Shown here one piece after another: positions 7,978 to 14,185 of a stretch of DNA of 16,551 nt. Under the pieces are notes generated by a model. That model made no database searches, was not told where the DNA came from, and saw only the letters and a program-made list of their open reading frames with translations. Location: positions 1 through 16,551 of the forward strand of contig CAMPJQ010000011.1 of NCBI GenBank assembly GCA_946886925.1, given 5' to 3'. Origin of the DNA: an uncultured Terrimonas sp. (GTDB taxonomy: Bacteria; Bacteroidota; Bacteroidia; Chitinophagales; Chitinophagaceae). Position 1 is the first letter of the stretch. Every line of letters begins with the position of its first letter. Made by a program: the position numbers and the translations under genes.

Positions 7978-8081
7978 CACATTGCCATTCATTATTTATG
8001 TGGCTACAGCATTCTGCTTCCCTTTTGGGAATATAAAGTCAGATCATCGGGTAAAGGAGTGCAAATGAGAATTGCCTACGT

Positions 8082-8124
8082 AAAAAATGTACAAAGCCTG
8101 AAGTACTTACATGCTTCAGGCTTT
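8082..8124 (-). terminator. Intrinsic terminator for the DUF1579 gene in a convergent gap
   Basis: AAAGCCTGAAG (8093-8103) and CTTCAGGCTTT (8114-8124) form a perfect 11-bp stem with a 10-nt loop. Read on the minus strand the stem is followed by a run of six T (complement of 8082-8087). It lies 22 nt behind the DUF1579 stop codon and about 115 nt behind the plus-strand barrel gene. On the plus strand only CTTTGTTGG follows, so it probably serves mainly the minus strand. Confidence 0.7.
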
Positions 8125-8145
8125 GTTGGTAATGATTATTGGTCT

Positions 8146-11369: not shown

Positions 11370-12344
11370 ATGAAAGAGATTATCAATTGCGCTGCTTATG
11401 CCGGTGGTCAAAGACTTGCTGATGTTGAATTAAATAATGTTCATGACATCCTTAAAGAAAAGGATAAGTTCGTATGGATAGGATTGTATGAACCATCAGA
11501 GGCAATACTCAGCAAAGTGCAGGATGAATTTAATTTGCACGACCTGGCCATTGAAGATGCACACCGGGCGCATCAGCGTCCTAAAATAGAATTGTATGGC
11601 GATTCGATTTTTGTAGTGCTTCGTACGGCACAGATGAACAAGGAACGTCATATTGAATTTGGCGAAACGCACTTTTTTGTTGGAGTAAATTTCATTGTGA
11701 GCATACGACATGGTTCTTCTGTTGCGTATACCGAAGTGCGGTCGCGTTGTGAAACAATGCCTGAGCTGTTAGGTAAGGGCCAGGGATTTGTATTATACGC
11801 GATTATGGATTTTATTGTTGACAGGTATTTCCCTGTTGTAGATGAACTGGAACAGGAGTTAGATGTGATTGAGGACAAAATATTTAAAGGAAAGCCCAGC
11901 CGGGAAACCACCGAACAGATATACGAGTTAAAGCGGGAATTGCTGGAGGTAAAAAGAACAGTGTCGCCATTGATAGATATTTGCAACCGCCTGATGCGGT
12001 TCGATATCAAAAGCATATCAGATGAAACACAGCCTTATTTCAGAGACATCTATGACCACGCTGTACGCATCAATGAAATGATAGATAATACAAGGGAATT
12101 ATTGAACACTGCCCTGGAAGCAAATTTTTCTTTAATATCCATATCTCAAAATGACACTTCAAAAAAGTTTGCGGGATGGGCTGCAATCATTGCTATGCCA
12201 ACCATGATCGCCGGTTTTTATGGTATGAACTTTAAGTTTATGCCTGAGCTTAACTGGCATTATGGATACTACGCTGTAATTATTATAACTATTGCTACCT
12301 GTAGCTTATTGTATTATTTTTTCAGAAGATCAGGTTGGTTGTAA
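11370..12344 (+). CDS. corA: CorA-type divalent cation transporter (magnesium/cobalt channel)
   Basis: This 324-residue protein is a CorA-family cation channel of the inner membrane, normally a homopentamer importing Mg2+ (and Co2+). The large N-terminal cytoplasmic domain (1-265) includes the typical IEDAHRAHQRPKIELY and the long stalk helix region (150-265). Two C-terminal membrane segments lie at about 268-284 and 300-318. The signature GMN (285-287) follows TM1 in FYGMNFKFMPEL, the pore-loop region. A basic tail (FFRRSGWL) follows TM2, as expected. The length is normal. The ATG at 11370 is the natural start. The stop codon is immediately followed by the heptad-periodic region. The gene is convergent with lysS. 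Confidence 0.96.
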   Translation: MKEIINCAAYAGGQRLADVELNNVHDILKEKDKFVWIGLYEPSEAILSKVQDEFNLHDLAIEDAHRAHQRPKIELYGDSIFVVLRTAQMNKERHIEFGETHFFVGVNFIVSIRHGSSVAYTEVRSRCETMPELLGKGQGFVLYAIMDFIVDRYFPVVDELEQELDVIEDKIFKGKPSRETTEQIYELKRELLEVKRTVSPLIDICNRLMRFDIKSISDETQPYFRDIYDHAVRINEMIDNTRELLNTALEANFSLISISQNDTSKKFAGWAAIIAMPTMIAGFYGMNFKFMPELNWHYGYYAVIIITIATCSLLYYFFRRSGWL

Positions 12345-12650
12345 AATGCAAATGGAAAAATTCGAATCCAAAATGAGAAACCTGAAATCAGAGAGGCAGT
12401 CGGCGATCAGCCATCAGATTTCAGCAGTCGGTAATTATTCAACTGATACCTATGCCTGAGCAATGAATACTCGCCACTGGCAACTGAAACTTCACCATTC
12501 AGATATTTCTTCCTTGTAGTTAGTAGTTACTGATCTGATAGCTAACGGCTGAACGCTGGTAGCTCCGAAATCCGAAATGATAAACCGGGTTGAAACGGAT
12601 GCTCCCTGCAACTTGCACCCTGTAACCAATCTCAAATTTCAAATTTCAAA
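12345..12650. repeat. Composite heptad-periodic repeat region between corA and lysS
   Basis: The whole spacer follows a 7-nt period while the heptamer changes by block. AAA recurs at 12371, 12378 and 12385. TCAG recurs at 12407, 12414 and 12421, flanked by CAGTCGG at 12397 and 12425 (28 nt apart). GCCACTG/GCAACTG lie at 12473/12480. GTAGTTA is tandem at 12516/12523. GCT recurs at 12541, 12548, 12555 and 12562. CCGAAAT is tandem at 12565/12572. GCAACCT-like units lie at 12601, 12608, 12615 and 12622. CAAATTT is tandem at 12633/12640 with a partial third copy. Spacings between blocks 12397, 12425 and 12516 are multiples of seven. The region starts at the base after the corA stop codon and extends into the 3' end of lysS. 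It has no ORF and no T-tract terminator. Confidence 0.8.
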
Positions 12651-14185
12651 CCCTTCTCTCCCTCCCCATCCCTTTTCTCCGGCCGCATCTGTGGAAAGAA
12701 AAGCACATCCTGTATAGAAGGCTGGTTGGTTAACAGCATGCACAAACGATCAATGCCTATACCTATGCCTGCGGTGGGTGGCATGCCGTATTCCAGCGAT
12801 CTCAAAAAATCATGATCAATAAACATGGCTTCCTCATCACCGCGTTCCATTAATTTTACCTGTTCTTCAAAACGTTCGCGCTGATCAACAGGATCATTAA
12901 GCTCACTATAGGCATTGGCTATTTCCTTACCATTGATCATCAGCTCAAAACGCTCTACCAGCCCCGGTTTACTGCGGTGTTTTTTAGTGAGCGGGCTCAT
13001 CTCTACCGGGTAATCAATAATAAATGTGGGCTGTATATAATGCTTCTCGCATTTCTCACCAAAGATGCTGTCAATAAGTTTTCCACGTCCCATGCCCGGC
13101 GTAGTTTCTATATAAAGCTTTTTACAGGTATCTCTTAATGCTGTTTCATCCATTTCACTAATATCAATACCGGTGTGTTCTTTTACCGCTTCATAAATGG
13201 AAACTCTTTTAAAAGGCGCTCTAAAATTCAGCATTTTATCCCCTACGGGTACATCGGTTGTATTGTGCAAAGCAATTGCTACCTGCTCCAGTAAGTTTTC
13301 CGTGGTATTCATCATCCAGAAATAGTCCTTATAGGCCACATAAAATTCGAGGATGGTAAATTCCGGGTTATGTGTCCGGTCCATTCCTTCATTCCGGAAA
13401 TTACGGCTGAACTCGTATACCCAGTCGAAGCCGCCTACGATCAGCCTTTTTAAATACAGCTCATTTGCAATGCGCAGGTACAATGAAATATCCAACGCGT
13501 TGTGATGCGTAATAAAAGGACGTGCAGCGGCGCCTCCGGGAATACTTTGCAATACAGGCGTATCTACTTCAAGCGCCCCATGCTCATTTAAAAAACCACG
13601 AATGGTATTGATCATTGTGGTGCGCTTAATGAAAGTATCTTTCAGTTGGGGGTTAATGATCAGGTGAGCATAGCGTTGGCGATACCTGAATTCCGGATCG
13701 GTAACCGCGTCAAAACTTTGCCCTTCCGCTTCCTTTACTACCGGCAAAGGCTTGAGTGATTTGGAAAGTATAGTGAAAGCGGTAACATGAATGGAGGTTT
13801 CGCCGGTTTTGGTAATAAAGCCATATCCCTTTATACCAATGATATCACCTATGTCTAATAATTTTTTCCATACCGTATTATACAGTGTTTTGTCTTCACC
13901 GGTGCATATATCATCGCGCTTTACATAAATCTGTATCCTGCCCGAATGATCCTGCAGTACGGCAAAAGAAGCTTTGCCCATATCGCGTATGCTCATAATG
14001 CGGCCGGCGAAACTGATATCGGTAAACCTATCCCTGTTTTCTTCGGAAAAATTATTTTTTATATCTGTTGCCGTGTGGGTAACAGGAAAAGCTTCCGCGG
14101 GATAAGGATCAATACCCAGCTTTTCCAGTTCCAGTCTCTTTTCTCTTCTGATGATCTCCTGCTCAGATAAATGTTGTGTACTCAT
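12632..14185 (-). CDS. lysS: Lysyl-tRNA synthetase, class II
   Basis: This 517-residue cytoplasmic enzyme charges tRNA-Lys with lysine using ATP. The N-terminal OB-fold anticodon-binding domain spans about residues 57-145 ([21 protein letters not shown]). The class II catalytic core follows with motif 1 around [18 protein letters not shown] (208-225), motif 2 around [17 protein letters not shown] (261-277) and motif 3 around [13 protein letters not shown] (473-485). The normal end of bacterial LysRS (FPQMRPEK) falls at residue 504. Thirteen more residues follow and are encoded by repeat-like DNA (12635-12673) continuous with the heptad region, which is odd. The start ATG at 14185 lies 27 nt downstream of a near-perfect promoter at 14212-14242. 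Confidence 0.97.

Follow-up and report, generated by a model that had tools for sequence, protein, structure and literature searches.

Known heptanucleotide repeats and the corA-lysS spacer

In the SPADE survey (PMC6344855), intergenic heptamers are described as the most abundant intergenic tandem repeats across a wide range of prokaryotes, and they are treated there as unexplained. Polymerase slippage has been proposed for the heptanucleotide long simple sequence repeats (Mrazek et al., 2007, as cited in PMC4679880 and PMC4692102). Together with PMC12699852 and PMC9426551, these papers make intergenic heptamers a recognised but unexplained class for which slippage is the proposed origin. As portrayed in PMC6344855, PMC4679880 and PMC4692102, such repeats share with the arrays studied here an exact 7-nt period, an intergenic position and dispersal, but they consist of near-identical copies of one unit, whereas here the units change along the array.

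Mixed arrays have also been described. According to MacGregor (2015; PMC4679880), some Bacteroidetes and Microcystis intergenic regions mix several heptamers, and the statement in an earlier annotation of the present DNA (hereafter, the original prediction) that known heptamer repeats use one unit type per locus is not supported. The TAACTGA repeats of Beggiatoaceae, Cyanobacteria and Bacteroidetes covered by the same paper are likewise intergenic and mixed with other heptamers, and their indels between two Cyanothece strains are mostly 7-nt increments. They differ from our arrays in having one named heptamer and, in Maribeggiatoa, a location mostly just upstream of start codons, whereas the arrays described below avoid divergent spacers. 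Rehm et al. (2015; PMC4692102) described GGGAATC and GGGGA(C/T)T heptamers in Xanthomonas and Nostoc, which resemble ours in being heterogeneous, in forming some inverted pairs in convergent spacers and in varying in length between relatives, but they are G-rich and quadruplex-forming and follow a single consensus. In addition, 90% of the repeats in Xanthomonas have the same flanking genes in two species; here, by contrast, close species differ in which blocks they carry. Our search of the open-licence literature turned up no description of degenerate mosaic heptamers from Chitinophagaceae.

The spacer analysed here separates a corA-like gene from the convergent lysS in a stretch of 16,551 nucleotides from an uncultured Terrimonas sp., referred to as the window. 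By corA scan its nearest named relative was Agriterribacter humi (95% protein identity; family Chitinophagaceae), whose genus group comprises 12 genomes, with G070 (corA 95%) and G067 (88%) as near members. The features of the spacer and its neighbours are as follows (a dot marks features without an assigned strand).

11370..12344, + strand: corA-like gene, upstream neighbour (open reading frame; gene name taken from the original prediction)
12345..12631,.: corA-lysS convergent spacer of 287 nt, a heptamer mosaic (lag scan)
12340..12584,.: main lag-7 segment, score 25.3
12371, 12378 and 12385: AAA; 12407, 12414 and 12421: TCAG; 12541, 12548, 12555 and 12562: GCT (read from the sequence)
12403..12424,.: left inverted arm of ATCAGCC-type heptamers, 77% complementary to 12535-12556
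12513..12564, - strand: dispersed composite element (one copy, about 52-58 nt), GCTATCA-type heptamers followed by a GAGTAACTACTAACGACAGGATGAATAC-like stretch (profile match)
12516..12529, + strand: perfect tandem of two GTAGTTA units (read from the sequence)
12535..12556,.: right inverted arm of GGCTGAA-type heptamers, pairing with 12403-12424
12565..12578, + strand: perfect tandem of two CCGAAAT units (read from the sequence)
12569..12650,.: right-hand block, still alignable with A. humi apart from differences in length (alignment)
12600..12650,.: second lag-7 segment, score 14.2, entering the lysS 3' end
12632..14185, - strand: lysS, convergent neighbour, with its stop codon at 12632-12634 (open reading frame; gene name taken from the original prediction)
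from 12633: tandem CAAATTT (read from the sequence)

TAACTGA was absent from this spacer, and two single copies were found elsewhere in the window against 1.9 expected. We interpret the spacer as a degenerate mosaic heptamer repeat shaped by slippage-like 7-nt turnover and by copying between spacers, and assign this reading a probability of about 0.62. Four things described below were absent from the original prediction: dispersal throughout the genome, multi-heptamer modules common to different loci, the inverted arms, and the scarcity of arrays in divergent spacers.

The seven-base period and its dispersal

Between 12345 and 12650, identity at a lag of 7 nt was 0.478, compared with 0.257 in 2000 dinucleotide shuffles (z 8.9; none of the 2000 as high), and against the same kind of shuffles it was 0.384 at lag 14 (z 5.0) and 0.340 at lag 21 (z 3.2). 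Compared with letter shuffles, the lag-7 z values of the sub-blocks were 2.3 (12345-12396), 7.5 (12397-12578) and 4.2 (12579-12650), and a lysS coding stretch used as control (12653-12900) gave -0.3. When lags 2-40 were scored over the entire window, the two lag-7 segments listed above came out on top, and the runner-up reached 11.6. The periodicity of the spacer is real. Chance as its source is ruled out by the shuffles and by the behaviour of the other lags in the window and in A. humi; codon periodicity is ruled out as well, since 7 cannot be divided by 3 and the coding control shows no lag-7 signal.

The original prediction had described a 7-nt period with changing units, distinct from codon periodicity, and both points held in these comparisons; the positions that it gave for the AAA, TCAG and GCT motifs are all correct, and the GTAGTTA, CCGAAAT and CAAATTT tandems that it named are present at the places listed above. 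It had also taken the whole of 12345..12650 as the spacer. The period does cover that interval, but the true spacer ends at 12631, and the remaining 19 nt or so are the 3' end of lysS. The claim that the period is held in phase from at least 12397 to 12578 was too strong: in the array segments of the spacer, similarity at distances of one to six units was 0.53, 0.40, 0.36, 0.32, 0.29 and 0.24, fading over about five units, and rows written in steps of seven agree poorly around 12436-12460 and 12583-12603. As its units vary along its length, the spacer does not consist of tandem copies of a single unit type, and Tandem Repeats Finder at score 30 called only two period-7 arrays in it (2.1 and 3.3 copies).

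The lysS stop codon sits within the heptamers. The LysS protein ends in K/R-F-E-I in the window, A. humi and G070, with the stop codon lying within AAATTTC-type repeats; the tail in the window is KFEI, embedded in heptamers together with the stop, and the protein of the short-spacer relative G067 ends in DPEV instead. Adjoining the heptamers, positions 12651-12689 in the 3' coding end of lysS carry a pyrimidine-rich 19-nt tandem of 2.1 copies. Nine window spacers of at least 70 nt were tested for lag 7, this one and eight others, and two shorter ones were omitted; the corA-lysS spacer gave a z of 7.6. A weak lag-7 excess was observed in two of the others, at 2506-2703 (z 2.5) and 7978-8145 (z 2.2), with lag 7 the top one among lags 4-30.

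Arrays of this kind are dispersed through related genomes. At a score of at least 15, the 1.173 Mb of A. humi contained 37 segments at lag 7, 23 at lag 14, 10 at lag 21 and 7 at lag 28; each lag between 4 and 30 that seven does not divide had 0 to 6. G056, which belongs to the same family sample but lies outside the 12-genome genus group, had 52 lag-7 segments, 15 lag-8 segments and none at lag 10 in 200 kb at a score of at least 12, and G070 had 23 lag-7 against 8 lag-8 segments in 262 kb at the same score. No lag-7 segments were found in 200 kb of G005 at score 12 or in 50 kb of E. coli. With arrays defined at score 13, there were 52 in 1.17 Mb of A. humi, 43 in 200 kb of G056 and 19 in 262 kb of G070, that is, many intergenic loci per genome, as in the known heptanucleotide repeats. 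A lag-7 segment at score 13 was present in 6 of the 20 stretches of the family sample, five of which are shorter than 15 kb, including one that reads a GC content of 0.00. The mosaic is widespread in the lineage and is best regarded as a degenerate variant of the known heptanucleotide repeats, which it resembles in behaviour, except that it is not built from one unit type. Tandem Repeats Finder at score 50, counting calls with periods of 7 to 35 in sevens, touched 18 of the 52 A. humi arrays and covered 861 of their 5938 bases. If degenerate mosaics are an older or more active form of the known heptamers, most of them escape a standard tandem-repeat finder.

Probable local turnover, orthologous spacers and shared modules

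In A. humi, G056, G070 and the window alike, units become steadily less similar the farther apart they lie. In A. humi, identity at 7, 14, 21, 28 and 35 nt was 0.55, 0.48, 0.41, 0.36 and 0.31. Simulated duplication and deletion of 7-nt units together with substitution gave 0.56, 0.41, 0.34, 0.31 and 0.29 when similarity was not needed for the event, and 0.61, 0.55, 0.50, 0.46 and 0.44 when it was required; with unfitted parameters and the effect of array selection ignored, the observed fall lies between these two versions, one steeper and the other shallower than the data. Decay of a single pure array by mutation was rejected, since its simulation gives a flat profile.

A nearly flat profile (identity 0.64-0.79) was observed in arrays of Pseudoalteromonas, as young arrays should show. 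At one locus of this genus, annotated as the spacer between an S9 peptidase and isocitrate lyase genes, the segment between common anchors measures 43 nt without an array in strain CF6-2; 57 nt in A316, with about two units of each of two heptamers by eye (a regular expression counted no run); 280 nt in SDCH90, which shares its species name with A316, with an unbroken run of 28 units of GCTGANN type; and 336 nt in HJ51, where the other A316 heptamer forms one run of 26 units and one of 15. We infer, with loss as the alternative, that the long arrays grew from short ones; the series still gives the best evidence here for amplification in place. Close strains carrying such a locus in different states would also allow the step size and rate to be measured if the mosaics are indeed a form of the known heptamers. 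When the spacer was compared with plasmids by BLAST, short matches only were obtained, one of them of 33 nt on a Pseudoalteromonas plasmid, which may be due to chance.

The decay of identity, the simulation and the Pseudoalteromonas series support local 7-nt copying, already raised in the original prediction, as the best explanation of the period. In the mechanism that we propose, a stretch nearly repeated at 7 nt would gain and lose 7-nt units in place through slippage-like mispairing in replication or repair, while point mutations alter the units. Neighbouring units would in this way stay alike, distant ones would drift, and new heptamers would take over locally.

The corA-lysS spacer is 287 nt long in the window and 74 nt in G067, where the lag-7 signal is unclear (z 1.8). 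Alignment of the window to A. humi showed 12569-12650 to be conserved apart from differences in length, and 12345-12568 to be nearly unrelated. Between A. humi and G070, the gaps in this spacer are of 7, 7, 1 and 2 nt. We also matched 53 of the 239 spacers on A. humi contig C29 to G070 contig C39, 9 of them with arrays, and restricted the indel count to pairs of at least 84% identity (5 with arrays and 17 without; the other 31 were dropped). Among indels of at least 5 nt, 6 of 14 in array spacers were multiples of 7 and the other 8 were not, compared with 5 multiples of 7 among 31 in the remaining spacers (Fisher p 0.07). For indels of 5-20 nt, a cut picked after the data had been seen, the fractions were 6/10 and 1/11 (p 0.02); gaps inside one spacer are non-independent in both counts. 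The prediction that strains would differ by multiples of seven therefore stands in part, with the two 7-nt corA-lysS gaps and the 6 of 14 on its side, and lengths of 1 nt, 2 nt and others against it.

One difference was of another kind. A mosaic block of 221 nt, a length that is not a multiple of 7, is carried by G070 and cleanly missing from A. humi, a single difference for which pure slippage gives no account. Used as a 251-nt query with its short flanks, it gave at least 58 matches at E<=1 in G070 (itself included; 40 of 187 candidates scored) and at least 45 in A. humi (40 of 168 candidates scored), and every match but its own was a sub-block. The composite element was first found with an iterated profile that matched 42 places and had the window in its training set. 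With a 58-position profile rebuilt from A. humi and G070 only, the window matched positions 1-52 from 12564 to 12513 (E value 2.5e-10); in 1.43 Mb of these two genomes, position 53 or beyond was reached at 14 places. In G056, 12 of 14 matches to the composite profile stop by position 34, i.e., they comprise the heptamer part only. A search with 71 nt of the window against 195 family genomes, a draw that may not have included G070, gave matches at E<=0.001 in A. humi only (best E 8.5e-9), and judged by this search the exact module of the window is narrow in range.

Sharing between loci was also evaluated within A. humi. A plain row-shuffle test is confounded by homogeneous runs, and matches of heterogeneous sequence were counted instead. 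The 52 arrays yielded 10 such cross-locus matches (ordered pairs), compared with 0-2 in eight sets with shuffled heptamer rows and 2-7 in eight sets shuffled in 28-nt blocks; the excess over the latter control is modest. As a second process in the proposed mechanism, multi-heptamer modules of about 40-100 nt would be copied from spacer to spacer, leaving ordered blocks common to different spacers.

Dispersed short intergenic modules, some with inverted arms, are also typical of REP/BIME and MITE-type repeats, and our arrays resemble these in both respects. A REP- or MITE-like selfish element, heptamer-phased by accident, would spread by insertion of whole copies, with 7-nt changes being secondary. 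The ordered composite at 14 places and in the window, the clean presence or absence of the 221-nt block and the many matches of the 251-nt query are what such an element would leave, but these matches are sub-blocks of about 20-130 nt with differing neighbours and do not look like copies of one element with fixed ends. Unlike in REP/BIME and MITE, fixed palindromes and fixed ends were not found in our arrays, which have an internal 7-nt period; inverted arms and a dispersed module are present, but no constant palindrome was seen across loci. Moreover, the sole filled/empty site, that of the 221-nt block, showed an ATT ambiguity of 3 nt only and no clear target duplication, and the long Pseudoalteromonas arrays sit where short strains have about two units of the same heptamers. 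We consider such an element unlikely as the source of the mosaic, and retain 7-nt turnover with copying of modules between spacers.

Placement, folding and the range of heptamer arrays

Placement relative to genes was determined in spacers of at least 50 nt between genes obtained by simple ORF calling (at least 80 codons), with arrays defined at score 13. Arrays occurred in 1 of 122 divergent spacers in A. humi, 1 of 20 in G056 and 1 of 34 in G070; in 32/387, 27/77 and 8/79 tandem spacers; and in 11/92, 6/21 and 4/27 convergent spacers, respectively. Pooled, 3 of 176 divergent (promoter) spacers had an array, compared with 88 of 683 others (Fisher p 1.5e-6); 6 of 52, 2 of 43 and 6 of 19 arrays lay outside any called spacer. 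In the proposed mechanism, arrays would be tolerated in tandem and convergent gaps and removed from divergent promoter gaps and coding sequence. Most arrays probably have no specific function, although hairpins can form from their inverted arms in 3' RNA.

In A. humi, the distance between the upstream stop codon and the start of tandem arrays has a median of 2 nt, with 24 of 33 nearer the 3' end; the median in G070 was -2 nt (8 arrays). In G056 it was 45 nt from the upstream stop against 32 nt to the next start, with 17 of 33 nearer the 3' end, and stop-codon anchoring was dropped as a general rule. Stops in three frames were likewise rejected as a general reason for seven: A. humi arrays stop 2.57 of 6 frames against 2.60 after permutation, and those of G056 3.36 against 2.89 (sd 0.14).

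Another reading is a selected 3'-end structure: arms of inverted heptamers would fold into hairpins that work in both directions to terminate or protect transcripts, with the period allowing pairing in several registers. The arms of the window do pair in registers shifted by 7 and 14, and the RNA folds of the spacer have z values of -2.5 and -2.1 on the two strands (DNA fold z -1.1). Folding with z below -2 was found in 18 of 42 arrays (at least one of the 42 without a z value) and in 6 of 45 control spacers (p 0.003), but compared with controls that keep the period the median z was only -1.0, -0.2 and -0.1 in three genomes. Purine-to-pyrimidine order prevailed over the reverse in arrays by 23 to 5 (of 35) in A. 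humi and 12 to 1 (of 15) in G070, but weakly, by 8 to 5 (of 25), in G056, and A. humi spacers without arrays lean the same way (94 to 55 in tandem, 22 to 14 in convergent and 27 to 15 in divergent spacers). The avoidance of divergent spacers and the proximity to stop codons in A. humi fit this account; the latter is not repeated in G056. In 12200-12800, one weak terminator-like site was predicted (- strand, 12483-12471) against 0.5 (sd 0.8) expected by chance, and Rfam gave no match at E<=1. The orthologous G067 spacer is, in addition, short and lacks a clear lag-7 signal. A selected 3'-end structure seems a little less probable still than a selfish element.

A heptamer profile learned independently of rotation and strand had the consensus C-Y-T-N-W-M-A in A. 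humi, scoring 8.36 per block (148 blocks) compared with 5.78 (sd 0.11) when columns were permuted; a profile from G056 scored 9.65 (100 blocks) compared with 5.74 (sd 0.15). The A. humi profile fitted G056 (5.29 against 3.44, sd 0.23) but not Nostoc (0.05 against 3.59, sd 0.96), and results on nine other single loci with 1-9 blocks each were mixed, which led us to reject a universal unit grammar. An ordered consensus common to loci exceeds what independent slippage predicts, and shared descent of modules accounts for it more simply than a universal preference. Octamer arrays with a AAGACCGT-like unit, some with reverse-complement halves, occur in A. humi (C1 ~119005-120816 and C12 ~199821) and in G056 (~113-166 kb), and seven is therefore the main step but not the sole one.

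In 80 loci from many taxa (1.44 Mb; score 14), lag 7 gave 18 segments in 13 loci, compared with 5, 1, 4 and 1 at lags 8, 10, 11 and 13; multiples of 3 gave 49-72, probably because these loci are mostly coding DNA. The 13 loci include A. humi and nine others labelled Bacteroidota, such as Niastella, Longitalea, Solitalea and a Chryseolinea MAG; the rest are a groundwater Actinomycetota MAG, Nostoc (6 segments) and a GC-rich Paractinoplanes, which has many other lags too and may reflect a composition effect. Chitinophagaceae spacers might carry an undescribed class of interspersed repeats, heptamer-phased mosaics that spread as ordered modules with 7-nt turnover, with a unit grammar common to genera and a parallel octamer class; intergenic DNA of several phyla would then be moulded by a copying step, intrinsic to replication or repair, whose footprint is 7-8 nt. 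We put this broader proposal forward tentatively and regard it as doubtful.

The prominence of lag 7 among the lags that are not multiples of 3 could also point to a dedicated copying enzyme, telomerase-like or another templated polymerase, adding 7-nt units; a terminal or templated polymerase was among the suggestions of the original prediction. Heptamer families do match across phyla: a search with the Pseudoalteromonas GCTGANN array hit 11 of 198 Bacteroidota genomes at E<=1e-5, and six of the loci hit carry arrays. Such matches could arise by chance, as a rich genome has many classes of heptamer; the units are far too different for one template, the octamer arrays in the same genomes have their own ordered unit, and slippage requires no new enzyme, which makes a dedicated enzyme very improbable. 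Most improbable is a lattice of protein binding sites at 7-nt spacing, as entertained in the original prediction: the ordered consensus with degenerate positions would suit it, but the Nostoc arrays do not fit this consensus, arrays differ strongly between close species, and those of A. humi show no orientation preference relative to the upstream gene (mean 0.48).

Individual loci in other taxa showed further arrangements. In Nostoc sp. S13 (L080, 128-19282), six heptamer arrays, mainly of AATGCCC and GTGGGGA types, occur in forward and reverse orientation within about 20 kb. A GCTTTCA/GCCTTCA array in a Bacteroidota locus (L276, 1430-2591; G376 C1 ~3013000) forms a lag-7 segment of about 1160 nt, and at two other Bacteroidota loci (L278, 1445-1718; L280, 1450-1534) heptamers are followed by their reverse complement and could form hairpins.
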